Source: Siderastrea siderea
Taxonomy: Eukaryota > Cnidaria > Anthozoa > Scleractinia > Rhizangiidae
Direction of reading: 5' to 3'
NCBI GenBank assembly: GCA_964030785.1
Contig: OZ034975.1
Span: forward strand, 32,579,769-32,643,768
DNA: 64,000 nucleotides
Shown: one piece after another, positions 34,254-63,019 of the stretch
Layout: each line of letters opens with the position of its first letter
Position numbering within the stretch: position 1 is the stretch's first letter
Notes under the pieces: generated by a model
What the model was told of the DNA's origin: nothing
Database searches by the model: none
What the model saw: only the letters and a program-made list of their open reading frames with translations
Program-made: the position numbers and the translations under genes

Positions 34254-34338
34254 ACAATTATTCTACGAGGTCGCGCTGGATATCGAATGATAGAAAACCA
34301 ACGAGGCGCGTAGCGCCGAGTTGGTTATAATCATTTGA
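34243..34338. repeat. Left half of a hairpin transposon split by the 7.2-kb element
   Basis: ACAATTATTCTACGAGG, then GATATCGAATGAT, then an inner palindrome around GGCGCGTAGCGCC. Its matching right arm (GATATCCAGC ... GTAGAATAATTGT) is at 41522-41560, beyond the insertion. Together they make one foldback element. Confidence 0.75.
34331..34338. repeat. Target site duplication, left copy (TCATTTGA)
   Basis: TCATTTGA directly precedes the terminal repeat start GAGTATATGTG at 34339; the identical octamer follows the other end at 41514-41521. An 8-bp duplication is what a cut-and-paste insertion would leave. Confidence 0.85.
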
Positions 34339-34705
34339 GAGTATATGTGCGCTCAATTGTTCTAATTTTATGCAAACGAGATTCGGGTCCAGAGGGCTAA
34401 TTTTATGCAATAGCCCGCGAAGCGGGCCTGAACCCTAAGTCGGGAAGCGGGTCGGTAGTGATTGGGATCCCTCATGAATAATAGCCCTAACCCTAAGCGG
34501 TCATCTTGGGTGGAATAACCCTAAGCCACCATCTTGTTTTTGAAGCGGCCATTTTGTTTTGAACCCTATAAATTTCTCGCTTTGAAAAAGCTCAGCGAAA
34601 GAAAGAAAAAGAAAGGATGCGCCAGCCGGGATTCGAACCTGACGAAGATTTAAAGACATGTCCAATTCGTAACCTAATACTTACCTGACTGCGCCAAGCC
34701 CGGGC
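34339..34705. repeat. Left terminal inverted repeat
   Basis: Matches the inverse of 41088-41513: first 38 nt identical, then blocks CCCGCGAAGCGGG, CCTCATGAATAATAGCCCTAA, GCCATxTTGTTTTGAACCCTA, a GAAAGAAAG run, and the tRNA-like module ending GCCAAGCCCGGGCTGAC. Four clusters of CCCTAA lie at about 34431, 34485, 34518 and 34562, the orientation found at a left chromosome end. Confidence 0.82.
34617..34702 (-). ncRNA. tRNA-like Pol III module in the left terminal repeat, pointing outward
   Basis: On the minus strand an A-box-like TGGCGCAGTCAGG is followed about 50 nt later by a canonical B box GGTTCGAATCC. Acceptor and anticodon stems do not fold as a normal tRNA, so this is a tRNA-like or SINE-head sequence. 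Transcription would run out through the CCCTAA region to the element end. Confidence 0.55.
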
Positions 34706-34869
34706 TGACTGAGTAATGACTTGGATGGGTTCTAGTAGTGGCTTCTGAAATAACTACATATTAATCAGCAGGTCCATAACAACCAAGTAAAACAAAGGTC
34801 TATTTCATTTTTGATCTATTTTTATTTCTGTTTCAATAACAAACCATATCCCTGTTTCAAACTGTACAG

Positions 34870-35863
34870 TTAAAACTGACCGCGAAACACGGAACTTGTG
34901 CTAGGTATTTCACCTAATCGTCCCTGGGTAAATTGCTTGGGGGAATCATCCTCGTCTTCTGGACTGTCCTCTTCAGGACTCTCTTCTCCAGCTGTGACCA
35001 TATCGTCTTCATCTGGTGACTCGTCAGGGGACTCGTCGGGTGATTCATCCTCTTCATCAGTGTCTTCATCGGTGTCTTCGCCTTCCTCAGGTTCTTCTAT
35101 CGGCTGGAAGACACGATTGAGAAGGTATTTCCGTTGGTTCACAGCTGCTTCCACGGCTTCATTGTAGTCCATGTCGTCTTCATCGATCATACGGTTTCTG
35201 GTTTCCAAAATGGCTTTGTGTAATGGATCGTCTCGAAGCACGCGAACCAATTTGAGATGTTCAATGTAGACTTGTCTCAGTGCTTTTTGCAGCTCGGGCA
35301 ATATCTCATTATAGGCGCGAATTTTGGCCCGTTTCTTGCTTAAACCAGCCTTTCGCAGTCTTGACCAAGTGCTGAAAGTCTTTGAGTTTGATGGCTTTGA
35401 CACTATCTCGAAACTCGTCCCAGGGGTCTATGTCTGAGACCCCCATGTTGACTGGTGACTTGGGTGATGTAGGTGATTCGGGAAACACATCCAAGGGTTT
35501 CAGACTATCGGGTGACATGGGATCCCCAAAAATGTCGTAGATAAATTTCTTTCCGGATTTAGGATCAATGTGGACAGTAGGCTCAATGATGTCTGCTGAC
35601 TCAACTGTTTTTGGTTCTGCTGTCTCAGCGATTTCGGCTACTTCCGTTGTTTCTGTGTCTGGCGGACTTGGTGGTTCAGCGGGTCTGGGTGAAATCACGT
35701 CGGGTCCTAAGAGTGGTTCGGTTGGACTCGACGGTTCTGTTTGTTTACCTATGGGGTTGATCTCAGTCAAATACTCTTTGACTTTACAAGTTTTTTCGTG
35801 ACGTTTTCGACTATCCGGTCGACTAAATTTTTTCAAACAATAGTCGCAATCGTGACTACTCAT
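34870..35863 (-). CDS. C2H2 finger-acidic protein, split over two overlapping frames
   Basis: The first frame, 35863-35309, starts with a finger CDYCLKKFSRPDSRKRHEKTC, a Pro/Ser/Glu linker, then IDPWDEFRDSVKAIKLKDFQHLVK. The second, 35403-34870, begins at a GTG and has a helical region (AGLSKKRAKIRAYNEILPEL..., then DDPLHKAILETRNRMIDEDD) and a very acidic SPDESPDESPDED tail. They overlap by 95 nt and together look like one protein whose frame changes between about 35400 and 35330: by a frameshift mutation, a small intron or programmed shifting. Probably a DNA-binding regulator or core protein. AATAAA on this strand follows near 34830. Confidence 0.62.
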
Positions 35864-35894
35864 CGAGAGACATCTGCACTGGTTGGTGACTTGA

Positions 35895-36170
35895 CTAAAA
35901 TGCAGTAAACGTGGTAAAATCAGGACTTTTATAGTTTTCTTTTAGATCAGATCGAGGAGGGTCTGCTTCTAACTTGGTTAAATCTAGGATCAGATGTTGA
36001 ATGTTTTTCTGAATTTTTTCCAGCTGTTGTATCAACTCATCTTTGGGGTTATGTTTTGGATAATCAGGTGGCGAATTTTGCTTTCGTTTCCAACAGTTCA
36101 ATCGTTCGTGACGTTTTCTTACCCAATTGGTTTTAAAAACACGTCCGCAATAGAAGCAAGGGTCCGACAT
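35895..36170 (-). CDS. Small single-finger coiled-coil protein
   Basis: 91 residues. Finger CFYCGRVFKTNWVRKRHERLNC at residues 5-26 (C-x2-C...H...C), basic linker, then a helix with regular hydrophobics (LIQQLEKIQKNIQHLILDLTKL). The finger resembles those of the neighbouring genes, suggesting duplication within the element. It ends 31 nt before the start of the finger/acidic gene on the same strand. Its upstream region is the tandem repeat block. Confidence 0.68.
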   Translation of the reverse strand: MSDPCFYCGRVFKTNWVRKRHERLNCWKRKQNSPPDYPKHNPKDELIQQLEKIQKNIQHLILDLTKLEADPPRSDLKENYKSPDFTTFTAF

Positions 36171-36240
36171 GTTGACGGGATCAACGGTGAAACTAAATGG
36201 TCTCTACACTGTTTCGTGATGGTATTTACGTCTTTTATAA

Positions 36241-36782
36241 GTCTACACGAGTTGGTGTTTATCACAGCTTTGTGTTGAAATTTTTTTCTAAGTCTACACG
36301 AGTTGGTGTTTATCACAGGTTGGTGGAAATTTTTTCTAAGTCTACACGAGTTGGTGTTTATCACAGGTTGGTGGAAATTTTTTCTAAGTCTACACGAGTT
36401 GGTGTTTATCACAGGTTGGTGGAAATTTTTTCTAAGTCTACACGAGTTGGTGTTTATCACAGGTTGGTGGAAATTTTTTCTAAGTCTACTCGTGTTGGTG
36501 TTTATCACAGCTTTGTGTTGAAATTTTTTTCTTAGTCTACACGAGTTGGTGTTTATCACAGCTTTGTGTTGAAATTTTTTTCTAAGTCTACACGAGTTGG
36601 TGTTTATCACAGCTTTGTGTTGAAATTTTTTCTAAGTCTACACGAGTTGGTGTTTATCACAGGTTGGTGGAAATTTTTTTCTAAGTCTACACGAGTTGGT
36701 GTTTATCACAGGTTGGTGGAAACTTTTTTCTAAGTCTACACGAGTTGGTGTTTATCACAGGTTGGTGGAAATGTTTCTAGAG
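36241..36782. repeat. Eleven 48/51-bp tandem repeats in two variants
   Basis: The unit begins AGTCTACACGAGTTGGTG, then TTTATCACAG. It ends either GTTGGTGGAAATTTTTTCTA (variant A) or CTTTGTGTTGAAATTTTTTTC (variant B, 2-3 nt longer). Order from left: B A A A A B B B A A A. Units are contiguous with no spacers. The minus-strand frame through part of it is a consequence of unit lengths near multiples of three. It sits between two gene blocks and could be an enhancer, hr-like origin or iteron array. Confidence 0.9.
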
Positions 36783-36821
36783 TAAATACTTCATTGATCA
36801 TTTGCTTTCATGATAGTTGGT

Positions 36822-36837
36822 GGTTCCTAAAAGAACC
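36822..36837 (-). terminator. Histone-like 3' stem-loop
   Basis: Minus strand GGTTCTTTTAGGAACC (6-bp stem, TTTA loop), preceded by AAC and followed by ACC, about 100 nt after the stop of the three-finger gene at 36938. Same hairpin as at 38530, 39869, 40378 and 40900. Confidence 0.72.
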
Positions 36838-36937
36838 GTTGGTTGTCTTCTTTCGCTTGACATTCTGTCGCTTGACATTCTTTCGCAAACGTACTGTTTG
36901 CTGAGATACAAGCTCCGGAAAAAGTTTGCTGAGACGC

Positions 36938-37435
36938 CTACGCATACATCCAACGTTGACATTCTTGGATCGTTGTTAAACGCTCCTTCATGGTTTCATA
37001 GTCCAACCCGAGATAACAGAGTTGGTTGTCTTTAGATAGCCAATACCCATAACTGGTACCATTGCTAGCATGAACATACCCTCGCCAGATTTCAGGATTG
37101 TGTTGTAAAATCTGTAATTTTTCAAATCGATCTTCCAACCATTCTTCTTCCATCGGTTCTGGTGGAACTCGACAATAGTCTTCTTCACGTCTCTGACGTT
37201 GTCCCTCGGTAGTAAATGTTGCATCGCAATAGCTACAAGGAAATCTATGTCTTTCCTTACACCCTCTTTCATGACGATCTCGACTGTCTTTGCGTGTGAA
37301 CTTGGATACGCAGAAACTACACTGAAACCTTCTTCGTTCCTCAACGGGTTTGCAACAAATTTCGTCTCTAACATGTTGATTACGATGACATTTTTGTGTA
37401 AACAGATCGTCACAACGAAAGCATTGGTAAGCCAT
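36938..37435 (-). CDS. Three-finger C2H2-like protein
   Basis: 165 residues from the ATG at 37435 (MAYQCFRCDDLF); upstream codons in frame overlap the next gene and are not needed. Three C-x2-C...H...C fingers: CFRCDDLFTQKCHRNQH (about 5-27), CSFCVSKFTRKDSRDRH (about 38-58), CSYCDATFTTEGQRQRR (about 66-87, final ligands odd). The remaining half contains YGYWLSKDNQLCYLGLDYE and may form a separate domain. Probably DNA-binding. The stem-loop at 36822 marks the 3' end. The upstream gene ends 8 nt before this start, so the two may share one transcript. Confidence 0.72.
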   Translation of the reverse strand: MAYQCFRCDDLFTQKCHRNQHVRDEICCKPVEERRRFQCSFCVSKFTRKDSRDRHERGCKERHRFPCSYCDATFTTEGQRQRREEDYCRVPPEPMEEEWLEDRFEKLQILQHNPEIWRGYVHASNGTSYGYWLSKDNQLCYLGLDYETMKERLTTIQECQRWMYA

Positions 37436-37443
37436 GGTCAAAG

Positions 37444-37752
37444 TTAGGCTGTCTGGTTCTGGGCTGACTCTTTTAACCGTAGCAGACCATCCAACGTCAC
37501 AATAGAAGGAATGGGATGACGTCGGCGAATTTCTTGAAAACAAGGAAACGCGTTCGGACATGTTTCCAACCAAACCATAAACACAATCCAACGACCGATA
37601 TTGCCTTGACAAAGATCCAAAGCTTCTAAAGGATTTTCTACGGGCTCTGGTAAATCATGTCCTTCATACAGCTGCTTACACAAGTAGAGATGCGTCTTGT
37701 AAAGAAACCAATCCGTAAAACTCGACGATAGATACAGAAAACATCCTGTCAT
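37444..37752 (-). CDS. Hypothetical 102-residue protein
   Basis: Starts MTGCFLYLSSSFTDWFLYKT at 37752, ends 37444. Aromatic and hydrophobic, Cys-containing (LDLCQGNIGRWIVFMVWLETC); not a clear TM protein, no family recognised. It forms a divergent pair with the gene at 37963; the spacer holds TGACGTCA at 37831 and mirrored TTTCGTAGAAGAAG / TTTGCGTAAGAAGA motifs. Confidence 0.58.
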   Translation of the reverse strand: MTGCFLYLSSSFTDWFLYKTHLYLCKQLYEGHDLPEPVENPLEALDLCQGNIGRWIVFMVWLETCPNAFPCFQEIRRRHPIPSIVTLDGLLRLKESAQNQTA

Positions 37753-37830
37753 CTTGTATTCACAGCAAAAAGATACTTTTTTTGCGTAAGAAGAAATTCT
37801 GCTGCTTCTTCTACGAAATAGAACAAAGAC

Positions 37831-37838
37831 TGACGTCA
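37831..37838. promoter_or_regulatory. CRE palindrome TGACGTCA in a divergent promoter
   Basis: Perfect CREB/ATF-type octamer between the divergent genes 37444-37752 (-) and 37963-38505 (+). The same octamer sits in the other divergent promoter of this element at 39524. Confidence 0.6.
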
Positions 37839-37962
37839 GCGGGCGAGTTCGGACATGTTTTAGGGTGGGTACTAACAGACATGACGAACAAGTACCTGTT
37901 AGTGTCAGTTTTAGTCATTTGAGTCAACAGCAAGCTTACTTTTGCGTAAGAAGAAAGTCGAC

Positions 37963-38505
37963 ATGGAGCAAATCTGTATGATTCTGGATTTGGATGGGTA
38001 TCGTATACGATCTGGTTTTATTCTGCGTGAAATGGGTGTGTACAGTCAACGTTACGGAAGTTTGAGTTGGATGTTTGAAAACACTCTACCTTTCTTCTAC
38101 TTGGATCGGAAAGATCAACATACGTGTCATTATGTGTACCGTCATGTGCATGGACTCCCGTTTGAATCAACCCCTACAGAAAAAGCGTACCCACAACATC
38201 TCGTCAAACATTTAGTGGATGTGACCTATCATCAATCCAAAACACATGGCAAGCAGCTTGCAGCTTACAAAGGAGGACGACTGGAAAAGGATTTACTGCA
38301 AGAACTACAGATTCCTTGCATCAATTTGGAAGACTTGGGCTGCCCCAAAGTAGAAGAACTCGTTGCTGTTGGATTCAAACCTGGGTCAAGTTGTGGGCAC
38401 CATCTCAAACCCACCCTCCATTGCCCTAAACAGGAAACCGATTTGTTTAACCAATGGATGCAGTCTCAACTTAACAAGCAAACCTTTTCACACAGCTTTT
38501 CGTAG
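37963..38505 (+). CDS. Putative RNase H-fold-like protein of mobile-element type
   Basis: 180 residues from the ATG at 37963 (MEQICMILDLDGYRIRSGF); an in-frame ATG at 37942 lies in the shared TTTTGCGTAAGAAGAAA leader motif and is less likely. Blocks: ILDLDGY near the N-terminus, YVYRHVHGLPF, AYKGGRLEKDLLQELQIP, INLEDLGCPKVEEL, and a terminal C-x-H-H...HCPK zinc-like cluster. The DLDG start and KGG...L.IP...L...CPK pattern recalls RNase H-like exonuclease folds in ORFs of animal mobile elements; no catalytic set is proven. A histone-like stem-loop begins 25 nt after the stop. Confidence 0.66.
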   Translation: MEQICMILDLDGYRIRSGFILREMGVYSQRYGSLSWMFENTLPFFYLDRKDQHTCHYVYRHVHGLPFESTPTEKAYPQHLVKHLVDVTYHQSKTHGKQLAAYKGGRLEKDLLQELQIPCINLEDLGCPKVEELVAVGFKPGSSCGHHLKPTLHCPKQETDLFNQWMQSQLNKQTFSHSFS

Positions 38506-38529
38506 AAAAGCGAGAGACTAAAAACAAAC

Positions 38530-38545
38530 GGTTCTTGTAGGAACC
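38530..38545 (+). terminator. Histone-like 3' stem-loop
   Basis: GGTTCTTGTAGGAACC with AAAC before and ACCCA after, the flanks typical of the histone mRNA hairpin. AAAGTCTGTGACCA lies about 20 nt downstream, matching a motif after the other copies. Confidence 0.72.
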
Positions 38546-38595
38546 ACCCAATTTTATTCAAAGTCTGTGACCAACAAGTATTTTCACAAGATTGT

Positions 38596-39480
38596 TTAAC
38601 TGTTTGTTAAGTTTAACTTTTTTACAAGAGTCATAAATTGTTTGAAATCTTTCACAACATCAAAATGATAGTTTTCTTTGAGTAAAACCAGTTCTGTGTT
38701 TCCCTCTTGTCCATAGGATTGCCATCCAAAACGTTCATACACATCAACGATGATGAGATTGTAGTCGTGTAGATGTTGTTGAAATAGTTTCAGATCGTCT
38801 TCGAAATAAGTTTCCATTTGCCATTTTCTGAATCCTTTTCGAATCGGTACTCCGGCCTCCCGATGTAACTGTTCGGCTGCCTCTTTAATTTCCTTATCCC
38901 ACCATCTTAGATTTTGTGATCGTGCTTTCGCATAGACCAAAGCTCTGGCTAAGATCATGGCTCCAGGTCTTAAATTTAACACGGTTCCGATGAGTTCACG
39001 ACGCCAGGGTTGACATTTCATCTGATGAAAGTCAAAATTACGTTTCTCTGTAAATTCTTCTCGACAGTGTTCACAGACGAGTCTGTTTCGACAACAATGA
39101 TCTGCGTCTGATTTGTGAGCCCATTTACGTCCACAATCTTGACACTTGTGTTTCATTCGATCTAGCAAAGATCGCATGTAGACTTTTTGAAACCCGTTAC
39201 AGCAGACATCGCGTTCATCCGGTGTGTCATAGTGTGTCTTACAGGATCGACAGAGAAAACCATAGGCTAAGAGGAGAGCTAGTCGTTTGTTCGTACCAAA
39301 AAATTCATCGCATCGACGTTTGTAACGAAGGTTCATTTGTTCTTCAACCTCCTCATCGTCTATACGTGATCGTTTGACTTTTAGGTAGTCATATCGGCAG
39401 TTCTTTATCTCGTCATAGGTAGTCAGAACCTGTTGATATTCGTCACATAGAATCTTGAGTTCAACCTCTGTCAACATCAT
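38596..39480 (-). CDS. Cysteine-rich zinc-binding protein with HYDVI-like C-terminus
   Basis: 294 residues. The N-terminal helical charged region is followed by a Cys cluster: LCRSCKTHY...DVCC (about 78-95), HKCQDCGRKWAHKSDADHCC (about 111-130), and a C2H2-like CEHCREEFTEKRNFDFHQMKC (about 136-156). The C-terminus has LIIVDVYERFGW and ELVLLKENYHFDVVKDFKQFM, which resembles the IVVY...HYDVI module at the N-terminus of Polinton polymerases; this is inference. Divergent from the ORF at 39641, with TGACGTCA between them. Role unknown, possibly nucleic-acid binding. Confidence 0.66.
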   Translation of the reverse strand: MMLTEVELKILCDEYQQVLTTYDEIKNCRYDYLKVKRSRIDDEEVEEQMNLRYKRRCDEFFGTNKRLALLLAYGFLCRSCKTHYDTPDERDVCCNGFQKVYMRSLLDRMKHKCQDCGRKWAHKSDADHCCRNRLVCEHCREEFTEKRNFDFHQMKCQPWRRELIGTVLNLRPGAMILARALVYAKARSQNLRWWDKEIKEAAEQLHREAGVPIRKGFRKWQMETYFEDDLKLFQQHLHDYNLIIVDVYERFGWQSYGQEGNTELVLLKENYHFDVVKDFKQFMTLVKKLNLTNS

Positions 39481-39523
39481 GTTTGAATGATTCTACTTCT
39501 TTCTTAGAACATAGGTGGGGTCG

Positions 39524-39531
39524 TGACGTCA
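39524..39531. promoter_or_regulatory. CRE palindrome TGACGTCA in the second divergent promoter
   Basis: Lies 43 nt upstream of the minus-strand start at 39480 and about 110 nt upstream of the plus-strand ORF at 39641. Same octamer and context as 37831. Confidence 0.6.
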
Positions 39532-39640
39532 TCGGATGTGTTTAGACAAGCCCAACGATTTTCAAATCCATCATTCACACATTCAGACACACACTTAGTG
39601 ATCGCTTAAAGAAATACAAAGTCTTTCGTAAGAAAACAAC

Positions 39641-39847
39641 ACGGAGTATTATCGAGATCTCAATCGAAATGACTTCAAGTCAGATGAAGCGTATGAAGCA
39701 GAACGATTTAAACGGGGTTTAGCCTGTGGCTTTACTTTGGAACAGATTTTTCTCCATCAACTCATTGGCGTAGGGCTATGTTTAGGCTTGAGCCAAGCAG
39801 AAATTGAAGCCCATGTTGGCGCAGACTCGGGATATGTGTTTTCATAA
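39641..39847 (+). CDS. Small ORF with ACG where a start codon is expected
   Basis: 68 codons, TEYYRDLNRNDFKSDEAYEAE..., ending YVFS. There is no ATG in frame. The sequence TTTCGTAAGAAAACAAC-ACG-GAG aligns with TTTGCGTAAGAAGAAAGTCGAC-ATG-GAG of the gene at 37963, so ACG occupies the start position: a mutated start or a non-AUG start. The middle is an amphipathic segment (GLACGFTLEQIFLHQLIGVG). A histone-like stem-loop begins 22 nt after the stop, as for its neighbours. Function unknown. Confidence 0.5.
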   Translation, partial: TEYYRDLNRNDFKSDEAYEAERFKRGLACGFTLEQIFLHQLIGVGLCLGLSQAEIEAHVGADSGYVFS

Positions 39848-39868
39848 CCAACGCGGCAAACAACCAAC

Positions 39869-39884
39869 GGTTCTTTTAGGAACC
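39869..39884 (+). terminator. Histone-like 3' stem-loop
   Basis: GGTTCTTTTAGGAACC, followed by ACCCA and then AATAAAGTGTATGACCA. It begins 22 nt after the stop of the 39641 ORF. Confidence 0.75.
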
Positions 39885-40081
39885 ACCCATTTGAATAAAG
39901 TGTATGACCAGATCTTTTTTTATACCGCCCTTTGTGGTACCGATCGGATCGGAATACTAATGTATCTGCATACTAATGTGTCGGCGCGTTGCGTACAAAG
40001 CATGTTTCCTGAGAGGGACCGCTTGTTGTGATAAAATACCGCTCCTTGTTTCTATCATTCAGTAGAAAGCAAAGTAACAAC

Positions 40082-40354
40082 ATGTCTTACATGGTGACTT
40101 CGTGGTGGGATATCTTACCACCCGAAATCCAGCAGTACATTATCAAGTTAGCCGACCGACAGCATCACCGGGACCAGTTAAACCGAGTTCATCAGGTATT
40201 ACGTTTGTTTTGGAACATTTGTAACTGTGGTCCATACCATATGTTACGCGGAATTCATTTCAGCAAGAAATGGAACATGAGCTGTGGTATTAGAGCGTTT
40301 TTTAGAAAACGCAACCAAGTTATCTACAAGTATATCATTTGCTGTCGCAAATAG
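40082..40354 (+). CDS. F-box-like protein, first of three alternative C-termini
   Basis: 90 residues from MSYMVTSWWDILPPEIQQYI. SWWDILPPEIQQYIIKLAD is a good F-box-like helix, suggesting a SKP1/cullin adaptor. After ...NRVHQ (40195) comes CAG|GTATTA, a potential splice donor in phase 0. Unspliced, the frame continues with VLRLFWNICNCGPYHMLRGI. Two related units downstream (40438 and 40673) start with LNKLWGICRCGPFHML-type sequence immediately after TTTCAG acceptors, also phase 0. Hence exon 40082-40195 could be joined to either. The stem-loop at 40378 ends this version. Confidence 0.65.
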   Translation: MSYMVTSWWDILPPEIQQYIIKLADRQHHRDQLNRVHQVLRLFWNICNCGPYHMLRGIHFSKKWNMSCGIRAFFRKRNQVIYKYIICCRK

Positions 40355-40377
40355 TCATTTGTTTGTGAAAAACAAAC

Positions 40378-40393
40378 GGTTCTTTTAGGAACC
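40378..40393 (+). terminator. Histone-like 3' stem-loop
   Basis: GGTTCTTTTAGGAACC in AAAC...ACCACA context, 24 nt after the stop at 40354. A TATGACCA motif lies downstream, before the next acceptor. Confidence 0.75.
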
Positions 40394-40437
40394 ACCACAT
40401 CCATAAAAGCTTATGACCAAAATTTGCTTTATTTCAG

Positions 40438-40680
40438 ATGTTGAACAAACTGTGGGGTATTTGTCGCTGTGGTCCTTTTCATGTGTTGCTAGAAATTCAG
40501 TTTTGTCGGCGACGAAACATACCTGTGACGGTGGGGATGCGTAAATTTTTAGAACTAAAAGGATGGCGCGGAAAAGAAAAAACTGGAAGAAAACGACCCG
40601 ATGTCGTCATGAAGATGAAGACTGAACAAACCTTGGGTTTGTGTAAGACTAAAAAACTTGCTTTCATTTCAGATCCTTGA
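40438..40680 (+). CDS. Second alternative terminal exon of the F-box-like gene
   Basis: Starts directly after TTTATTTCAG. LNKLWGICRCGPFHVLLEIQF parallels unit 1 and unit 3; the remainder is basic (RGKEKTGRKRPDV). A small indel late in the unit appears to shift it off the D-E-D stop used in unit 3, so it overruns into the unit 3 acceptor. No stem-loop remains between units 2 and 3. The in-frame ATG at the exon start might instead allow independent translation. Confidence 0.5.
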   Translation: MLNKLWGICRCGPFHVLLEIQFCRRRNIPVTVGMRKFLELKGWRGKEKTGRKRPDVVMKMKTEQTLGLCKTKKLAFISDP

Positions 40681-40867
40681 CAATCTTTGGCGAATTTGTC
40701 GATGCGGTCCCTACCACATGCTAAAAGAAATACTGTTTTGTAAAAAGAGAAAATGGAAAATCTTATACGGTATGCGTAATTCGTTGGAACGACAAGGCTA
40801 CCGAGGACCCGAACACGCATGGAAGAAAACCACAGCTTGTCGCCGAAACTCCACCGATGAAGATTAA
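40673..40867 (+). CDS. Third alternative terminal exon of the F-box-like gene
   Basis: Starts at ATC directly after CTTTCATTTCAG in phase 0: ILDNLWRICRCGPYHMLKEI, then basic residues and a terminal TDED. 64 codons plus TAA, with a stem-loop 33 nt later. Most similar to unit 2, indicating tandem duplication. Confidence 0.52.
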   Translation: MLDNLWRICRCGPYHMLKEILFCKKRKWKILYGMRNSLERQGYRGPEHAWKKTTACRRNSTDED

Positions 40868-40899
40868 ACAAACCTTTGGTTTGTGTAAAACAAACAAAC

Positions 40900-40915
40900 G
40901 GTTCTTTTAGGAACC
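40900..40915 (+). terminator. Histone-like 3' stem-loop
   Basis: GGTTCTTTTAGGAACC flanked by AAAC and ACCAT, followed by AATAAAGTATATGACCA. Best-preserved example of the hairpin plus downstream motif. Confidence 0.77.
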
Positions 40916-40963
40916 ACCATGTTTAATAAAGTATATGACCATCAAGTATAGAGAAATAAAAAA

Positions 40964-41046
40964 TGTCGAGAGTGGGATTCGAACCCACGCGGATCACAAT
41001 CCATTGGATCTTAAGTCCAACGCCTTTACCACTCGGCCATCCTGAC
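40964..41046 (-). tRNA. trnL-UAA: tRNA-Leu(UAA)
   Basis: Folds as a class II tRNA. Acceptor GTCAGGA/TCTCGAC (one A-C mismatch and one G-U), D arm around GGCCGAGTGGTAAAGGC, anticodon stem TTGGA/TCCAA with loop CTTAAGA (anticodon TAA), long variable arm GGAT/ATCC, T arm GTGGG-TTCGAAC-CCCAC. A and B boxes are intact. It reads UUA leucine codons and is not a stop suppressor. It lies just inside the right terminal repeat. Confidence 0.9.
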
Positions 41047-41084
41047 AAATCAATAGTAGAACTAATTCCATTCACGACTCGGTC

Positions 41085-41172
41085 AGCCCGGGCTTGGCGC
41101 AGTCAGGTAAGTATTAGGTTATGAATTGGACATGTCTTTAAATCTTCAGGTTCGATTCCCGGCTGGCGCATC
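41085..41172 (+). ncRNA. tRNA-like Pol III module in the right terminal repeat, pointing outward
   Basis: Mirror copy of 34617-34702: A-box-like TGGCGCAGTCAGG, B box GGTTCGATTCC about 50 nt later, ending GGCTGGCGCA, then a TTTCTTTTTC run that could terminate Pol III. Not foldable as a normal tRNA. Confidence 0.55.
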
Positions 41173-41513
41173 TTTCTTTTTCTTTCTTTCTTTCTTTCTT
41201 TCTAACAAGACTTAGGGTTCAAAACAAGATGGCCGCTTAGGGTTCAGAGACTTAGAAAAAATTAGGGTTCAAAAAGACTTAGGGTTAGTATGACCGATTA
41301 GGGTTAAAAAAGACTTAGGGTTAGTATGACCGATTAGGGTTAAAAAAGACTTAGAAAAAAATTAGGGTTAGGGCTATTATTCATGAGGGACTTAGGGTTA
41401 GTATGGCCGCTTAGGGTTCAGACCCGCCTCCCGACTTAGGGTTCGCTCGGACCCGCTTCGCGGGCCCGCATCTCCTTTGCATAAAATTAGAACAATTGAG
41501 CGCACATATACTC
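41088..41513. repeat. Right terminal inverted repeat with about eleven TTAGGGTT words
   Basis: Inverse of 34339-34705, expanded by a repeated block GACTTAGGGTTAGTATGACC. TTAGGG runs 5'-3' toward the element end, as at a right chromosome end. A CCGCTTCGCGGG hairpin lies near 41453. The last 38 nt are the inverse of the left terminus. Confidence 0.85.
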
Positions 41514-41521
41514 TCATTTGA
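41514..41521. repeat. Target site duplication, right copy (TCATTTGA)
   Basis: Identical to 34331-34338 and directly abutting the terminal repeat end CATATACTC. Confidence 0.85.
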
Positions 41522-51590: not shown

Positions 51591-51657
51591 TAACCTAGTG
51601 GCTTGAAAAAATGGATGCAAAATATTTCGGCACCTACACTGTAAGGTAAACAGGTTA

Positions 51658-52457: not shown

Positions 52458-53980
52458 TCACTTGGTCAGAAAAATGCAAAAATGCTGCCTTTCGTACATG
52501 TAGAAACATGATTCGAGCTAGAGGAAGAAGTCAAAACAATGAAAATTTACATGTATAGATTATTAATTTTGAAGTAATTTCTGGAAAAATTTTGCACCCT
52601 TTCCTTCGTAAAATGCAATAATTATAAGGAAAAATATTATTTGCTGCTTAATTATTGCTGATACAGGGTGTATGTATCTATTTGAGCCCTGATCAGCTAG
52701 GTGTATATTCATACAGCAGTAATGATTTTTGAAATAAAATGGAAGAAATCTGCTAAGTTCAGCAAATAGGTGACTTACAGGTGTACACCCTGTGCAGAAG
52801 TAGGCCTTACTGCATACATTTCATGTCTGTGTCAGACAAATTCCCTTATCAGATCTAACTGTTTCACCGTGGTCTGGCACAAATCATGAAGTAAAAGCAA
52901 AATCCTTTTGCTGATTCATTTGTATTCTTAGAATACACTGACGTAGTTCATGTATACCTTGCCACTGATCAAACCAAACGAGACTGTGCCCACACACCAG
53001 GAAGCACTGCGTTAAGCCTCAGTAACATTTTCAGCCCAAAATGTACAGTTTCAGGAGCCTGATAGTATACACTGTGACAGAAGAAAGAAAAAAGACAGAC
53101 AATTAATGTGTTATAACGAGGAGGCCGAGGAGAGAGCCAACCTTGGCCATTATGATACTTACAGGCTGTAAGCCATTTTTGCTTACAGTAGTCAGCTATT
53201 TCATGTGTTGTGAATCGGTAACCCCTTAAAGCCATTTAACTTGTCATCAAAGCACAAGATAACCAGGGCATGAATTGTGCCTAATACATCCACCACTGTG
53301 CCTAAATTTTCCTCACTGTTAACTTTATCCTGAGTTGAAGCATTACAGCCCTTTGTAGGGGATTGTTTGCCACTGTATTTTTGTTTTGTTTTTGTCTGTT
53401 TGTTTTTTGTTATTTATTATTATTTTTTTGCCTGCTTTGAAACTGATGCTCAAGCTGTTTTTATTTTTTAATATTGTCAATATAGATAAAATTATCATAA
53501 ACAATGAGCATATCCCATTTTGTAACACGGTGCCCTTGTATGACAACTATATGTGATGCAGTTGCACTGTTCACTAGGAATTTTACCCTTGGGTAATGTA
53601 TCAGTGAGTAACTGCAACTGGGAAGTGAATCAAAATCCAAAGTAAACCCAACCCAAAGCATTTCCTCAAGGATGCCACGGAGGAAAGGAGCTAGTGCAAT
53701 GTGCGGAACAATTATTCATAACTTTAACATCCATCCCTCCTGACTCTTAAGCATTTATTTGAACTTTTGATGCTCAGGGCTTGTATAAAATCACTGCCCC
53801 CTCCTCCCCCTTTGCCAAAAAAGTGTTCAAATGCCCCTCCCAAAGAACTATTATTTTTTTTAGTGGGAATTATTCATATTATTCTCAGGGACTGTGAGTA
53901 AAAATGTTGCTGGCCTGTTCTGAATGTTCTAGACATCAGCGAGTGAATCAGAGTTGTATCTCCCAAAACAAAGGGAGTAA
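52458..53980. other. Gene-poor stretch before the virus-like gene block
   Basis: AT-rich, short frames only. Base composition changes to about even G+C near 53.97 kb, where compact plus-strand coding begins; I take that as the approximate edge of the virus-like block but see no terminal repeat. Confidence 0.4.
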
Positions 53981-54005
53981 GGCATGGATCGCCATCGCGT
54001 ACGAA

Positions 54006-54725
54006 ATGGAAAAACAACACATGGAAGTCATGATGGATATAGCCAAAATGGACGTGGACGATCAAGCTAAACGACAACAACTAGCCGCTCTCAACCTGGC
54101 TCAACCCTACGTGAAAATCACCAATACAGGTATCGCCTCCGAATTAGATTCCTTGTATGTACTCATTCCAGCCAACATGCAATTTGAAATGGAATGGAAA
54201 TTCGCTCAACTGATGGGACTTGTGAAAGATGGAACGCCAAGTGAACGCATCGTCCAAGAAAAGAATTATCTGGTGAAACATATCGTCGATTACGACGATC
54301 GACACAAATGGACACCAACCGTCGGTCCTGTCAACAAATATCCACCGCATGGCATCGTCTCCGTCAGCTTTACTCACCCCGATTTCGATTATTACTTCTT
54401 CTTGGGTCCGAACCTCAGTCGGCAACCATTTCCCACCACGCAAACTGTCAAACCACAACAAGGACAACAACAATTGATGATTTACACGGATCTCGTCGCA
54501 CAGAGCATTGTCGGAAATCAACAAAAAGGTTTTTTACGTACCTTGGATGCCGGCAATACCGATCATCAATTTGATACCACTCAACGGATGTTTTTTCCTC
54601 TTGGTAAAACCATCTTTGACAGCATTGCCATTGACATTCAAACAGCCAATGGGCAGCCTGCTCCCTTCAAACAAGGCAGCACCATCATCACCCTTCAACT
54701 CTCCAGAAAAAGTCAACGGACATAA
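54006..54725 (+). CDS. Minor capsid-like structural protein of adintovirus/Polinton type
   Basis: 239 residues from the ATG at 54006; the frame is open to an ATG at 53904, but those 34 codons are low-quality and likely host sequence. Blocks: a helical start MEKQHMEVMMDIAKMDVDDQ, PYVKITNTG, SLYVLIPANMQFEMEWKFAQLMGL, a Tyr-rich FDYYFFLGPN, and a terminal beta block FFPLGKTIFDSIAIDI...GSTIITLQL. The terminal block resembles the ends of the two proteins at 61948-62997 and 63020-64000 (P-[LV]...F-x-x-G-x-[ST]-[IL]-[IV]-T-L), suggesting a shared jelly-roll-like fold. It is convergent with the minus-strand block. Confidence 0.62.
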   Translation: MEKQHMEVMMDIAKMDVDDQAKRQQLAALNLAQPYVKITNTGIASELDSLYVLIPANMQFEMEWKFAQLMGLVKDGTPSERIVQEKNYLVKHIVDYDDRHKWTPTVGPVNKYPPHGIVSVSFTHPDFDYYFFLGPNLSRQPFPTTQTVKPQQGQQQLMIYTDLVAQSIVGNQQKGFLRTLDAGNTDHQFDTTQRMFFPLGKTIFDSIAIDIQTANGQPAPFKQGSTIITLQLSRKSQRT

Positions 54726-54882
54726 AAAACAGGACGTGGTTGTTTTTTTATAGAGAACAAAGGTCCTGGGGGAGGAGGGAATGGACCAATCACCTATCAG
54801 GGACATGGGGTCCCCCAGGAGGGGGGACCCCCCTCCCCCCTCTCTGAGGTCCCATCAGGCCTAGCGGGGAACGACGAGAGAC

Positions 54883-54890
54883 CATAAAAA
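54883..54890 (+). promoter_or_regulatory. TATA-like box CATAAAAA
   Basis: Lies 39 nt upstream of the small ORF at 54922, the same placement and word as TATA-like boxes before minus-strand genes of this block. Confidence 0.5.
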
Positions 54891-54921
54891 CAGAGCGAGC
54901 GCCTGGCTGGAGCATCTTATC

Positions 54922-55071
54922 ATGACCACGAGAAATTATTGGAAGAGTTTGAAACATTCGAAGACGATTTTAGAGGTGGAGCAAATTTTGAAGAAGGTGA
55001 AGGCAGAACGTGTCCAAGACAAGAGTCTTGCTGAACAATTAGAGAAGAGAGAGCAGAGGGGAGGTGTGTGA
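54922..55071 (+). CDS. Small coiled-coil ORF of the virus-like block
   Basis: 49 residues, MTTRNYWKSLKHSKTILEVE then QILKKVKAERVQDKSLAEQL; almost wholly a charged amphipathic helix. Too short for the usual ORF cut-off. Supported by the CATAAAAA box upstream. Function unknown. Confidence 0.45.
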   Translation: MTTRNYWKSLKHSKTILEVEQILKKVKAERVQDKSLAEQLEKREQRGGV

Positions 55072-55242
55072 CTTTTTAAAGCACATGTCCCCTGACGAAT
55101 GGGAACAATTGAGATGTGGACGATCCGTTTGATTTGGATGATTTTGTTTCTTGAAAAAAAGACAGGTGCAGACATTTTCATTTTGTTTTATTTTCTCCCA
55201 AAAGAACACAACATGGGCTGTAACACGAGGTGATTAAAACAA

Positions 55243-55602
55243 TTACAATTTTAAACGTTTCTTGGCTTGCATGATTTTTTTGACCACGCGTTCCGTCTTG
55301 GTTTTCTTGCCGGGTAACCGATCAATGGCTTGGATCATCTTCGTATCGGCTTTCCATTTATCTTGCAAATTCTTGGCACGGCTGTAATCAATGTCGTGTT
55401 GTTTGGCGATCTTGTCCAAGCGATTGATGCCGGGATCCCCACGTTTCAGGCGTTTGGCTAAATGCGTGCCAGGGCCCATGTACTGATAACCAGGCCAATG
55501 AAATTCTTTACCGGTTTTAGCGATCCATTTTTGTACATCCAATGGCCCACCGGATTGGCGGCGTTTCCGTTTGATACCCCTTCTCCTCCTCTTGGTGGGC
55601 AT
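55243..55602 (-). CDS. Phospholipase A2-domain virion protein
   Basis: 119 residues. Basic leader MPTKRRRRGIKRKRRQSGG, then a parvovirus-type PLA2 domain: Ca-binding loop YQYMGPG (about 40-46), catalytic His-Asp in IAKQHDIDY (about 69-76), and the later Asp in WKADTKM. The basic C-terminus is KKTKTERVVKKIMQAKKRLKL. In parvoviruses such a domain opens the endosome during entry; a similar role here is inference. The SGG after the basic leader may be a protease site. It starts 2 nt after the stop of the next gene and is the last gene of the minus-strand array. Confidence 0.8.
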   Translation of the reverse strand: MPTKRRRRGIKRKRRQSGGPLDVQKWIAKTGKEFHWPGYQYMGPGTHLAKRLKRGDPGINRLDKIAKQHDIDYSRAKNLQDKWKADTKMIQAIDRLPGKKTKTERVVKKIMQAKKRLKL

Positions 55603-55604
55603 GT

Positions 55605-56261
55605 TTATTCAGTGTCGTAATCCAATCGACGTCGTAACTTTTTGCCACGAGCCCAATCTTCCCAACCGGGTAAAGGTTTCAATCGTTCCACTTCTCGGGC
55701 GGGTCCTTTGCCTTTGCCTTTACCTTTGCCTTTGCCCCAAGGACTCTCGGCTATCTTTTTTTCCAAGGTCTTGCGCTGTTCTCGAATGGCTTCTAAACGC
55801 GACCGGGTATCCCCTCGACTGGTAGAAGGGGCCTCTTTCTTGAGAATGGGAATTTTACTGGTGGTGGCTGCTCCTTTGCCTTTCTTGGTTGTAGGGGTAA
55901 TGGGGCGTTTGGGAGTCGACGGGCTGCCTTTTATCATGCGCTTCAACCATTGTTCCACGGGTCCCGTCACCAAATCCCCGACCTCTTCCTCTTCCTCGCC
56001 TGGCGGGCCACCTGGTGCCCCCACACCCACGCCTCCAGGAAATTGACGGATCCGTTTGGTTAACTTGGTTAATTCTCGACTCAAGGGTTTGGTTTGGGCA
56101 TTGACGAGGGCCGGGGGGAGTTGTGGGTCGGCTAACAACACATGTTTTTTGGCAGCTAACGTGGCGGCTTTGTTCAACAAGGCATTTTCGGTGAGTTCTC
56201 CTTTGTAATATTGAATGAGTTGTTCCAAATCCTGGTGGGGAATCATGTACACTTCATCCAT
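55605..56261 (-). CDS. Core/minor structural-like protein with GKGKGK stretch
   Basis: 218 residues, MDEVYMIPHQDLEQLIQYYK then GELTENALLNKAATLAAKKH: a conserved-looking helical head that I recall in cnidarian virus-like repeats. The middle has Gly/Pro and EEEEE runs (PGGVGVGAPGGPPGEEEEE), then a Lys/Thr/Pro-rich basic part, a GKGKGKGKGKG tract (about 175-185) and a basic C-terminus. Likely a virion core or scaffold protein; function unproven. It overlaps the stop of the zinc-ribbon ORF upstream by 19 nt. Confidence 0.68.
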   Translation of the reverse strand: MDEVYMIPHQDLEQLIQYYKGELTENALLNKAATLAAKKHVLLADPQLPPALVNAQTKPLSRELTKLTKRIRQFPGGVGVGAPGGPPGEEEEEVGDLVTGPVEQWLKRMIKGSPSTPKRPITPTTKKGKGAATTSKIPILKKEAPSTSRGDTRSRLEAIREQRKTLEKKIAESPWGKGKGKGKGKGPAREVERLKPLPGWEDWARGKKLRRRLDYDTE

Positions 56262-56479
56262 CCTAGGTTACACGTTGGGCAAAGTTCCCCGTCTTCTTGG
56301 TCACGACAACGCTCACAAAGAGCAGAGTTCAAGATGTGCAGGTACTCTTGATACAACTGGTCATATTTATGCTGCCAATAATGACAATTGTCTCTCCATT
56401 TCTCTGTTTCTCGATTGGCCTCTTGTAACAGACGTACCCACGTGGGGAGTGTTAACGGGTCGGTCGAGCACATTGACAT
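56243..56479 (-). CDS. Small zinc-ribbon-like protein
   Basis: 78 residues from MSMCSTDPLTLPTWVRLL (56479). A helical middle (ANRETEKWRDNCHYWQHKYD) is followed by CERCRDQEDGELCPTCNLG near the C-terminus, a C-x2-C...C-x2-C pair fit to bind zinc. It overlaps the previous gene by 28 nt and the next by 19, consistent with compact viral coding. An upstream extension to 56533 is possible. Confidence 0.5.
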   Translation of the reverse strand: MSMCSTDPLTLPTWVRLLQEANRETEKWRDNCHYWQHKYDQLYQEYLHILNSALCERCRDQEDGELCPTCNLGWMKCT

Positions 56480-56778
56480 AACACGTGGTGAAGCCCTTGA
56501 AATAACCCGCGTCCTTTTTGTTGGACCAACCACGCACGACGCTTTTTCACCGAATGTTGACGACGTCCCAAGTCGCGTAGCACCTTTTTATAGGGACGAA
56601 GCTTGGCCAGGATGGGTGGTGTGACGGGAATCTTGTTTTTTAAGAAGTTCAAGACCAGTTCACTCACAGCATTGATTTGATCGGCATTGGCATGTTGTAA
56701 AAGGTCTTGACGTTTCAAGCGATTGGCTTCTTGTAACACCGACCGTAAAAACGGTAATTGACGTCGGAGTCGTTGCAT
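56452..56778 (-). CDS. Basic helical core-like protein
   Basis: 108 residues, MQRLRRQLPFLRSVLQEANR, then SELVLNFLKNKIPVTPPILA, KLRPYKKVLRDLGRRQHSVK and basic KKRRAWLVQQKGRG. I recall this helix-basic pattern as a frequent small protein next to capsid genes in cnidarian and mollusc repeats; a virion core role is likely but unproven. The stop of the upstream gene is 3 nt before its ATG. Confidence 0.62.
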   Translation of the reverse strand: MQRLRRQLPFLRSVLQEANRLKRQDLLQHANADQINAVSELVLNFLKNKIPVTPPILAKLRPYKKVLRDLGRRQHSVKKRRAWLVQQKGRGLFQGLHHVLCQCARPTR

Positions 56779-56781
56779 CTT

Positions 56782-56961
56782 TTATCGGTGACGGCGACGA
56801 TACCGTTGGTTGGCTTTTTGGATCACGCGTTTTATACGTTTATCCGTTTCCATCGCTACGGCTTTCCCCAACCCTGCCATGGCTGGGACCAACACGTTCA
56901 AAAAAGAACCTCCTTGTTGACGTCGTCGTTGTCGTCGTCGTCGTCTCCTCAAGGACTCCAT
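56782..56961 (-). CDS. Arginine-rich GG-motif core peptide, pX/mu-like
   Basis: 59 residues. Leader MESLRRRRRRQRRRQQGG, then hydrophobic SFLNVLVPAMAGLGKAVAME, then a basic tail with VIQKANQRYRRRHR. The layout (basic leader, GG, hydrophobic segment) parallels 61720-61914 and adenovirus pX. It overlaps the end of the upstream gene by 13 nt. QQGG-S may be an adenain site. Confidence 0.58.
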   Translation of the reverse strand: MESLRRRRRRQRRRQQGGSFLNVLVPAMAGLGKAVAMETDKRIKRVIQKANQRYRRRHR

Positions 56962-57299
56962 GGACTCGTGGGGTGGGACAACACACGTTGAAGAGCTTTG
57001 TTTTGTTTGATGGCATCCCGCGACTCTTTATAGCCTTGACGGGTGTTGCGTTTGAAATCTTGCCACCACCCACTTCCTTTTTGAGGTCGTTGTCGGTAAT
57101 ACTGTACATTGTCGGTGACGCCTTTCAAGGCTTGAGCGCCTAATTTGCCTAAAGCGAGGCCAAACCCAGGCGCTGGACCCGATAGAACCATACTCAGGCC
57201 ATGGGCTATTTTATCCACCAAACGGGGTTTGCGACGCATTAATGCCCCTCCTCGTTGACGTCGTTTTCTTTGGGTGGTTCTTTTTCGTCGGACGGCCAT
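56949..57299 (-). CDS. Basic GG-motif core-like protein
   Basis: 116 residues. Leader MAVRRKRTTQRKRRQRGGAL, then a basic RRKPRLVDK, an amphipathic IAHGLSMVLSGPAPGFGLAL GKLG segment, and a Lys/Gln/Trp-containing C-terminus. RRQRGG-A is shared with other small proteins of the block. A GATAAAAAG box lies about 35 nt upstream. It overlaps the 3' end of the 2-TM protein gene by 61 nt. Confidence 0.6.
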   Translation of the reverse strand: MAVRRKRTTQRKRRQRGGALMRRKPRLVDKIAHGLSMVLSGPAPGFGLALGKLGAQALKGVTDNVQYYRQRPQKGSGWWQDFKRNTRQGYKESRDAIKQNKALQRVLSHPTSPWSP

Positions 57300-57931
57300 G
57301 GTTCTAGGAGTGTGGGACTGGAGGGGGGCGGCTTTTTATCCTTTTCCGTCCAATACCCTTTGGACATCAACGGACGAGCACATCCGTCCACGTAACATGG
57401 CGCTTCCACGGGTTGGTACACAAAACGACGATGGTAATCTTGCACACATCGTTTGGGTAACGGAGGCGTGAAATCCACAATGGTATCATCCAACGTTTGC
57501 ATCTTGATCAAAAACCTTTCCAGGTCCTCCAAGGGAACACCACGCACATGGGTTTTCAATTCGGTCAAGGCTTTGGCATACGTGGTAAACGCAAACCGAC
57601 TCATGGTCACTTTAAACCGGTATTGTTTAAAATCGTTCCATCCTTTGACCACTGTACCCACGGCCGCCAAACACGCCACCAACGTACTGTTTTCCAAGAG
57701 GGGTCCGGCAATCATGCCCGCCGCCATCAGGAGTAATGCTAAGCCGTTGAATAAGGCGTTGACAAACTTGAAATGATTCAGCATTTTCCGATAACACCAC
57801 CACTGTTTGTGGTAAAAGGCATACAAGGAATCCATGCGTTGCAAAAGTTCCGGTTTGAATTTTTCACCGTGGCTTCTGGACAACGGTCCATTCAGCAAGG
57901 ATACCACGGTTTTTTCTTTTTGGGAAGTCAT
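57239..57931 (-). CDS. 2-TM (SLATT-like) membrane protein
   Basis: 230 residues from MTSQKEKTVVSLLNGPLS at 57931, placed 8 nt after the upstream stop; longer starts would overlap the upstream gene. A long N-terminal helix (YAFYHKQWWCYRKMLNHFKF) is followed by two TM helices, FNGLALLLMAAGMIAGPLLE and TLVACLAAVGTVVKGW, then a helical KVTMSRFAFTTYAKALTELK region, a conserved-looking RFLIKMQTLDDTIVDFTPP, and an acidic proline-rich tail. The helix-2TM-helix order recalls SLATT domains. Possibly a virion-membrane or pore-like protein; inference. Confidence 0.7.
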   Translation of the reverse strand: MTSQKEKTVVSLLNGPLSRSHGEKFKPELLQRMDSLYAFYHKQWWCYRKMLNHFKFVNALFNGLALLLMAAGMIAGPLLENSTLVACLAAVGTVVKGWNDFKQYRFKVTMSRFAFTTYAKALTELKTHVRGVPLEDLERFLIKMQTLDDTIVDFTPPLPKRCVQDYHRRFVYQPVEAPCYVDGCARPLMSKGYWTEKDKKPPPSSPTLLEPWPSDEKEPPKENDVNEEGH

Positions 57932-57939
57932 GGTGGTGC

Positions 57940-58146
57940 CTACAGGTGAAACGGTTGCGTAAGCTTGCGAAGGACGTCGGGATGCATCATCAACTGCCAT
58001 GCTCGATCTTCTAAGGTCCACACCAGTTCACGAAAATACGTTTCGTTGTAACGATCGATTAAACGGTCAATAGATTGGCCTCGTCGGTTTCGAACCAAAT
58101 TATATACCTCTTGCATGGCCTGGTAATCCATGTCGTCCAAACGCAT
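57940..58146 (-). CDS. Small helical protein of unknown role
   Basis: 68 residues from MRLDDMDYQAMQEVYNLV (58146), then RNRRGQSIDRLIDRYNETYF and RELVWTLEDRAWQLMMHP. Charged and helical. The frame is open to 58266 but there encodes a repeated ICWE made by a local direct duplication (58175-58285), so I take the inner start. Located between ATPase and 2-TM genes on the same strand. Confidence 0.52.
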   Translation of the reverse strand: MRLDDMDYQAMQEVYNLVRNRRGQSIDRLIDRYNETYFRELVWTLEDRAWQLMMHPDVLRKLTQPFHL

Positions 58147-58284
58147 GCTATGAAAATAATCACCAACAATTTTTTCCCAACAAATCCAAAACAACGGGGG
58201 AGCCAATCCCTTCAACCTTCTACTTGGTAATCGTCTACTTGGCATCTCCCAACAAATCCAACACAATGGGGGGGAGGCAATCTT

Positions 58285-58959: not shown

Positions 58960-59004
58960 GATGAGGACTAAGACCCTGACAAAAAAAGGCACCTTTTTAT
59001 GGAG

Positions 59005-59088
59005 TCGGTGGGACTCGAACCCACTCACGACCCCCAACACCTGTTTTTTCGGGGATCCAAGGCTCTACCGACTGAGCTACGTTTGGAT
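59005..59088 (-). ncRNA. Degenerate tRNA-like sequence
   Basis: On the minus strand GCTCAGTCGGTAGAGC is a perfect D arm, and GTGGG-TTCGAGT-CCCAC a perfect T arm with B box. The anticodon stem is replaced by GATCCCC/GGGGGTC around a 15-nt loop, and the acceptor strands (CCAAACG and CGACTCC) do not pair. A decayed tRNA, or a tRNA-like signal, in the spacer between protease and ATPase. Confidence 0.5.
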
Positions 59089-59127
59089 AGGACACAACAA
59101 AAACAACTGTTTTTTAACTCTTTTTAT

Positions 59128-59664: not shown

Positions 59665-59669
59665 CTTCT

Positions 59670-61097: not shown

Positions 61098-61099
61098 GG

Positions 61100-61327: not shown

Positions 61328-61328
61328 T

Positions 61329-61655: not shown

Positions 61656-61719
61656 GGTTGTCTTCTTTGCTCTTCACCAATGTCTGTGCTTCCCGTGATC
61701 CTTTTGTCTTTTTATACCG

Positions 61720-61914: not shown

Positions 61915-61947
61915 CTTTGACGGACTATCCCCTTTTCCCTTTTCTTT

Positions 61948-62997: not shown

Positions 62998-63019
62998 CCT
63001 GTCTTCTTTCTTTCTTTCT

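Follow-up and report, generated by a model that had tools for sequence, protein, structure and literature searches.

This study examined a 64,000-nt stretch of the Siderastrea siderea genome (contig OZ034975.1; hereafter the window), in which the element at positions 34338 to 41514 is probably a member of a family of protein-coding satellites of about 7-8.6 kb that are integrated in trans and carry histone-type mRNA ends. The original prediction had read the segment as a cargo-bearing transposon, a satellite of a virus or an integrated linear replicon; this broad reading survives, with most support for the satellite form, since both the insertion signature and two open reading frames (ORFs) point to Polinton-like elements in the same genome. 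A wider proposal, to which we give slightly less than an even chance, is that the family forms a class of selfish element in animals that has not been described before. It would be a satellite of Polinton-like viruses in the nucleus, with histone 3' ends timing its expression to host replication, telomere-oriented repeats and interchangeable tRNA genes, multiplying through snap-back palindromic linear genomes and delivered by a helper integrase. If true, no earlier mobile or viral gene set would be known to use the SLBP/U7 pathway for non-histone proteins, and a selfish gene set with such ends would show the S-phase pathway to be open to parasitism. The finding also opens the relation between satellites and helpers among animal Polintons to testing.

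The element, its target site duplications (TSDs) and its long inverted repeats were placed as follows, because the ends and the 6-bp TSDs could be read in other copies:

34338..41514, no strand: whole element, 7177 bp, with termini AGAGTATATG...CATATACTCT
34332..34337, no strand: left 6-bp TSD CATTTG (window sequence; length set by other copies)
41515..41520, no strand: right 6-bp TSD CATTTG (window sequence; length set by other copies)
34338..34740, no strand: left long imperfect inverted repeat, outermost 39 nt exact, with four CCCTAA strings
41051..41514, no strand: right long imperfect inverted repeat, with 12 TTAGGG strings within 41041-41514

The segment belongs to a mobile family that occupies many sites and is flanked by TSDs. 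The search of the host assembly (831 Mb, 402 contigs) gave at least 22 further places with matches to the element, by our own count among the matches listed (three of them on contig C169), with parts aligning at DNA identities of about 68-98%, and two additional copies were recognised through their ends. Both ends were read in 11 copies, the window copy included, and six of these have an exact 6-bp TSD around the terminal sequences:

Window copy: CATTTG
C10:14.12M: AATACA
C4:63.47M: ATTCTT
C6:31.24M: CGTGAT
C1:8.94M: GTGGGT
C12:35.39M: CACTCT

Two of the 11 have a TSD with one mismatch (5/6), namely C10:34.19M, whose left end is AGGG, and C13:38.65M. In the three on C2 (51.95, 52.18 and 52.40 Mb) the final bases at the right are missing, and because their flanks are identical these copies represent one insertion duplicated with its surroundings; one more copy, on C7, was read at a single end. 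The left terminus AGAGTATATG is present in 8 of the 11 copies and has two AG units, not three. Separately, the 49.7-kb contig C169 holds its three copies within about 32 kb, an arrangement that might reflect clustering of insertions, a concatemer or an artefact of the assembly.

An 8-bp duplication, TCATTTGA, had been proposed as the target duplication; it is present on both sides, but the true TSD according to the other copies is 6 bp. Copies with other duplications show that each 8-nt repeat consists of the 6-bp TSD extended by a single terminal base from the element and a single flank base matching by chance. Copies without the GAGTATATG/8-bp boundaries, which the original prediction had named as evidence that would tell against it, were found. 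Its proposal of an insertion inside a split foldback held: the rejoined flanks (137 nt) fold into a hairpin at -67.1 kcal/mol, and the segment is therefore a clean insertion. The identical 38-nt inverted termini that it described match exactly, but the inverted ends extend imperfectly over about 420-470 nt, with 96% identity between left and right in the terminal 49 nt and 87% in a 174-column block. Within these ends, CCCTAA occurs 2-16 times per left end (seven left ends counted) and never in the opposite orientation, and the window right end has no CCCTAA. The G-rich strand therefore points outward, as in telomeres, at the eight ends counted, although this orientation counts once rather than eight times because the copies share ancestry. 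Intermixed with these strings are G[CG]GCCAT[CT]TTG-type motifs, which we take to be YY1 sites, at 1-9 per end against one in the 56 kb of the window outside the element.

The second line of evidence comes from the 3' ends of the genes, where five sites in the window copy match the Rfam family RF00032 (Histone 3' untranslated region stem-loop), with E-values of 2e-6 to 3e-4:

36797..36842, minus strand: histone 3' stem-loop and downstream element, 32.5 bits, 100 nt after the stop of a finger gene
38525..38569, plus strand: histone 3' stem-loop, 26.8 bits, 24 nt after the stop of the 180-aa protein
39864..39908, plus strand: histone 3' stem-loop, 31.0 bits, 21 nt after the stop of a 71-codon frame
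40373..40414, plus strand: histone 3' stem-loop, 30.1 bits, 23 nt after the stop of the 90-aa protein
40895..40939, plus strand: histone 3' stem-loop, 30.5 bits, 32 nt after the stop of exon 3

Neither these stem-loops, nor the telomere-like repeats, nor the apparent alternative C-terminal exons described below had been noticed earlier. With up to two mismatches allowed, the hairpin pattern occurs five times in the window, where 0.15 occurrences would be expected, and each of the five lies within the element; six copy pieces gave 15 further RF00032 matches, six of them above the family cut-off at 35.8-36.2 bits (L014, L018 and L025). In all 19 distinct intact hairpin blocks a near-constant hairpin is followed, across a variable spacer, by TGA[CT]C (17 by script, with AG 13-17 nt past the hairpin, and two by eye), which AAAG directly precedes in 14. 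The hairpin and the downstream element are kept while the spacer and most upstream bases diverge, and one copy shows a paired change from GGTTC/GAACC to GGCTC/GAGCC. The histone hairpin in animals is normally confined to histone mRNAs. In the titles and abstract openings covered, with subscription papers mostly outside, no histone stem-loop in a transposon or virus was found. For a cnidarian, a Hydractinia study describes the same layout of hairpin plus histone downstream element in S-phase histone genes (PMC5011920).

About a dozen open frames occupy both strands of the element, of which the main ones, with the tandem repeats, are:

34870..35863, minus strand: acidic C2HC-finger gene, here split across two frames, one open 307-aa frame in C13
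35895..36170, minus strand: 91-aa C2HC-finger protein, tested for selection
36233..36776, no strand: tandem repeats, 11 x 48 bp, upstream of the left minus-strand genes
36938..37435, minus strand: 165-aa multi-finger protein, tested for selection
37444..37752, minus strand: 102-aa protein, with homologues adjoining Polinton-like integrases
37963..38505, plus strand: 180-aa protein, tested for selection, 11-sequence alignment
38596..39480, minus strand: 294-aa finger-like protein, tested for selection
39632..39847, plus strand: 71-codon open frame without an in-frame ATG, with a weak homologue in Polinton-like elements

Judged from their substitution patterns, the five ORFs tested are under purifying selection, with ratios of nonsynonymous to synonymous divergence (dN/dS) of 0.18-0.33 overall: 0.18-0.26 for the 180-aa protein (10 comparisons with relatives), 0.26-0.33 for the 294-aa protein (four relatives), 0.19-0.25 for the 165-aa protein (seven), 0.19-0.24 for the 102-aa protein (four) and 0.25-0.27 for the 91-aa protein (three), comparisons that are not independent, several relatives being close to each other. 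The near-identical C10:14.12M copy was left out, its dN/dS of 0.08-1.31 on a dS of 0.01-0.04 being uninformative. Frames are mostly open, with stops or frame breaks in some copies; the window copy is frameshifted in the leftmost finger gene, since C13 has one open frame there. The 48-bp tandem repeats may act as an enhancer or an origin.

Of the gene content first proposed, the finger-like ORFs, a tRNA-Leu and the tandem repeats were seen, and the labels RNase H-like (180-aa protein) and F-box-like (90-aa protein) could not be verified. The alignment of the 180-aa protein has many invariant residues (including D9, E23, H61, H63, E108, E123, D124, C144, H147, H153, C154 and E158), and its motifs may resemble those of a DEDDh exonuclease, an unproven likeness on which Pfam and PDB are silent: the 11-member alignment reached at best E 0.7 in PDB and 0.14 in Pfam, and the predicted structure (mean predicted local distance difference test score, pLDDT, of 35) was uninformative. 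The 294-aa protein had weak matches alone in PDB (best E 0.21). As the original prediction had stated, no rve, tyrosine recombinase, DDE, polB or capsid family was found in the Pfam scan of 10 window-copy ORFs, in which no recombinase, polymerase, capsid or replicase gene was recognised. The element is not a part of the Polinton-like element with located ends (on C7, below), as no Polinton core gene was recognised in the ORFs scanned and the two terminal repeats differ. Beyond the host, no relatives were found in IMG/VR with four protein queries and three DNA patterns (which reach close relatives only), in prokaryote genomes by the hairpin pattern or the 180-aa protein, or in phages with the 294-aa protein query.

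The candidate source of the integration machinery lies in the same genome. For Maverick/Polinton elements, AG-starting ends with a perfect 6-bp TSD are reported as a hallmark, and (AG)3 or (AGT)2 motifs as the termini in vertebrates (PMC8097293). On C7, a 22,547-bp Polinton-like element (9866345-9888891) has the TSD TATGTT, AGTAGT ends, an open integrase frame and inverted repeats of 576 bp that are 99.5% identical, so that this copy is probably young. A close relative lies in the window beside the satellite:

53898..63048, no strand: neighbouring Polinton-like element, putative helper lineage, 12 kb right of the satellite

This neighbour has weak, below-cut-off matches to an A32-type ATPase and an adenovirus-type protease, and just beyond the window (L048) lies an integrase with rve and chromodomain that is 98% identical to the C7 integrase over the shared part. 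The integrase is common in the host genome, with at least 102 matches when 101 of the 4821 first-look candidates were scored. Two satellite ORFs have homologues in this lineage: the 102-aa family matched the L048 ORF adjoining the integrase with a profile E of 7.9e-8, the runner-up among the 524 ORFs searched being at 0.11, and the C7 pieces with a phmmer E of 4.5e-8, and the 71-codon frame matched another Polinton-like ORF at E 5.5e-4 (next best 0.025) and at 1e-3 in C7. The other nine satellite queries gave no match better than E 0.027 against the 524 ORFs. No PolB was recognised in 22 scanned ORFs of the lineage and its surroundings, and no ends of the neighbouring Polinton-like element were found in the 20 kb analysed past the window. 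Across the lineage (window 53898-63048, L048 and L050-L052), the integrase is open in many copies, and a GRF zinc ribbon, a DprA-like gene and a weak adenain-like protease match were also seen.

Combined, these results suggest a mechanism that we infer from the sequences: integration in trans, SLBP/U7 processing, S-phase expression and helper-dependent replication. The Polinton-like elements would provide a Polinton-type (retrovirus-like) integrase in trans, and this enzyme would insert the satellite in the form of linear DNA that ends in AG...CT, which would produce the 6-bp duplications. Part of the satellite gene set is common to the Polinton-like lineage. Transcripts of several genes would be cleaved past the histone hairpin, guided by the downstream U7-type element, and the resulting messages without poly(A) would be expected in S phase, when the satellite could replicate in linear form by means of the host or a helper.

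Several observations weigh against this interpretation. All five window hairpins fall under the Rfam cut-off of 34 bits, so that a scan at the cut-off lists no window match; additionally, a same-kind scan of the C13 palindrome gave sub-cut-off matches to unrelated microRNA (miRNA) families to E 1e-7, and Rfam E-values alone therefore prove little. The loop variant AUUA deviates from the usual loop, one hairpin on C2 (outside the 19-block count) is broken, and two of the four plus-strand 'genes' before hairpins are an ATG-less frame and a presumed exon. AATAAA occurs in some downstream regions, for example past the 39869 and 40900 hairpins, so that ordinary polyadenylation is possible and processing at the hairpin is putative; AATAAA also follows the stop in two minus-strand genes, and two expression classes are therefore possible. 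For the helper, the two copies (L048 and C7) are related to each other rather than independent, and the terminal repeat AGAGTATATG differs beyond AG from AGTAGTAATG, the only located Polinton-like end; this lineage may therefore not be the mobilising one.

Rather than SLBP sites, the hairpins might be a terminator or a structural repeat that is peculiar to this family and has been copied from gene to gene, an explanation that we consider improbable. Loop variants, sub-cut-off window scores, nearby AATAAA and the restriction to a single family are in its favour, whereas the conservation of hairpin and downstream element amid diverging spacers and most upstream bases, the fit of both parts and their spacing to the histone signal, and covariance-model scores above the cut-off in three of the six copy pieces argue for the histone interpretation. 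A DNA transposon of the KDZ, hAT or P type with an 8-bp duplication has next to no probability left: P transposons have 8-bp target duplications, and the window copy does show an 8-nt direct repeat, but the other copies have 6-bp TSDs (five exact, two with one mismatch), which ruled this candidate out, and the scanned ORFs contain no transposase family. The same 8-bp length is reported for Zisupton and hAT (PMC12730594).

More serious, if still unlikely, is a self-mobile element in which the 294-aa or 180-aa protein is a diverged recombinase that makes 6-bp duplications. Both proteins are conserved under selection without a classification, and the family possesses its own terminal repeat; however, the 294-aa gene occurs, among the pieces fetched, only in L002 and L004-L012, the whole C13 copy has good ends without a 294-aa match and with a 180-aa match over the first 41 residues only, and the AG..CT/6-bp signature fits an enzyme abundant in the host genome. 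It is also distinctly improbable that the family is not a satellite but an independent lineage of small integrated DNA viruses that have inverted terminal repeats, depend on S phase and carry tRNA genes. The gene-dense strands, the linear-replicon-like ends, the uniformly oriented telomere-like strings at the counted ends and a palindromic copy would suit such a lineage, but neither capsid, polymerase nor replicase was recognised in the 10 ORFs and the IMG/VR queries, within their reach of close relatives, were negative.

Compared with known systems, the satellite resembles Polinton/Maverick elements and Polinton-like viruses in its 6-bp TSD, AG..CT ends, long inverted repeats and the two ORFs with homologues in the local integrase-bearing lineage. 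It differs in being a third of their size, in its histone-type mRNA ends and tRNA genes, in having no recognised integrase, polymerase, ATPase, protease or capsid in the 10 window-copy ORFs (most other copies being fetched only in part), and in a terminal sequence unlike the located element. Virophages and P4-type phage satellites use helper enzymes, and they share with this family a conserved gene set of their own and an apparent reliance on helper integration machinery, although the helper link here is inferred from the ends and two ORFs. Non-autonomous DNA transposons such as miniature inverted-repeat transposable elements (MITEs) are also without their own transposase, but a MITE is a short deletion derivative, whereas this element has about 12 open frames, five of them under purifying selection. 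Metazoan replication-dependent histone genes likewise have short ORFs, a hairpin soon past the stop and a purine-containing downstream element; in contrast, no scanned ORF here matches a histone in Pfam, some AATAAA signals are present and the F-box-like locus has apparent introns. In Mimiviridae, transcripts are reported to end at hairpin palindromes that a viral enzyme cleaves in the cytoplasm, with polyadenylation following; a non-cellular gene set with mRNAs ending at hairpins is thus common to both, but the satellite hairpin is of the host histone type (PMC4402537).

The right part of the element holds the F-box-like locus and the tRNA cargo, to which the left tRNA-like unit is added here:

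40082..40354, plus strand: 90-aa F-box-like protein, codon 39 (GTA, 40196) a potential splice donor
40438..40680, plus strand: exon 2, an apparent alternative C-terminal exon preceded by a TTTCAG acceptor, without its own hairpin
40673..40867, plus strand: exon 3, an apparent alternative C-terminal exon preceded by a TTTCAG acceptor
40963..41047, minus strand: tRNA-Leu(TAA), followed by a T run
34619..34709, minus strand: tRNA-like unit, with presumed box A/box B-like motifs and, by eye, an acceptor-like pairing of 7 bp
41082..41170, plus strand: mirror copy of the tRNA-like unit

The F-box-like label could not be verified, the sole Pfam match of the 90-aa protein being PRANC (E 0.14); its low-confidence model (mean pLDDT 47) has three helices at residues 8-47, and none of nine PDB matches in the structure search had E <= 0.001. 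The frame of the first part (40082-40195) runs on into VLRLFWNICNCGPYH, and exons 2 and 3 begin directly after TTTCAG with the homologous MLNKLWGICRCGPFH and ILDNLWRICRCGPYH, in phase with the GT ending the first part. Among the three C-terminal stretches the proportion of synonymous differences (pS, 0.76-0.85) far exceeds that of nonsynonymous ones (pN, 0.19-0.34), a pattern that two wrong frames (exons 2 and 3 only) reverse; one N-terminal part may therefore be spliced to alternative C-terminal exons. The locus looks like swappable cargo because no relative was found in the searched pieces of other copies, nor in C13. The tRNA genes vary as well: Leu in the window; Met, Trp, Leu, His and Tyr-like in C10:14.12M; His in C4, C6 and C12; Met and His in C2:51.95M; and Asp in C1:8.94M, with no tRNA gene in 26 of the 34 pieces scanned, most of which are partial copies. 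The tRNA-like unit was called by neither ARAGORN nor Rfam, and a similar unit is present in copy L044.

The C13 copy is a near-perfect palindrome with arms of 3.08 kb at 99.35% identity, and in other copies the 180-aa and finger genes are repeated in mirror arms. Snap-back forms are possible by-products of inverted-repeat linear replicons, and the palindromic copies may be such forms. The centre of the C13 palindrome (L046 4058-4527) is a self-complementary repeat stretch, with the sub-cut-off Rfam miRNA matches on both strands.

Other elements also occupy the window. At its left edge (710-6116), one frame carries rve and Bro-N together with a C2H2-type finger and a stretch weakly resembling VRR-NUC, and the next has an endonuclease VII domain and no Pfam PolB match, although we take it to look like PolB. 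A retroelement at 7705-12401 with a reverse transcriptase and 134-bp inverted repeats (100%) is presumably DIRS-like, and a DUF3504/tyrosine-recombinase frame at 32278-33633 with a weak QRICH1-type stretch is presumably Crypton-like. Finally, a tandem array of units of about 110 bp lies at 50652-51623, near the Polinton-like element.

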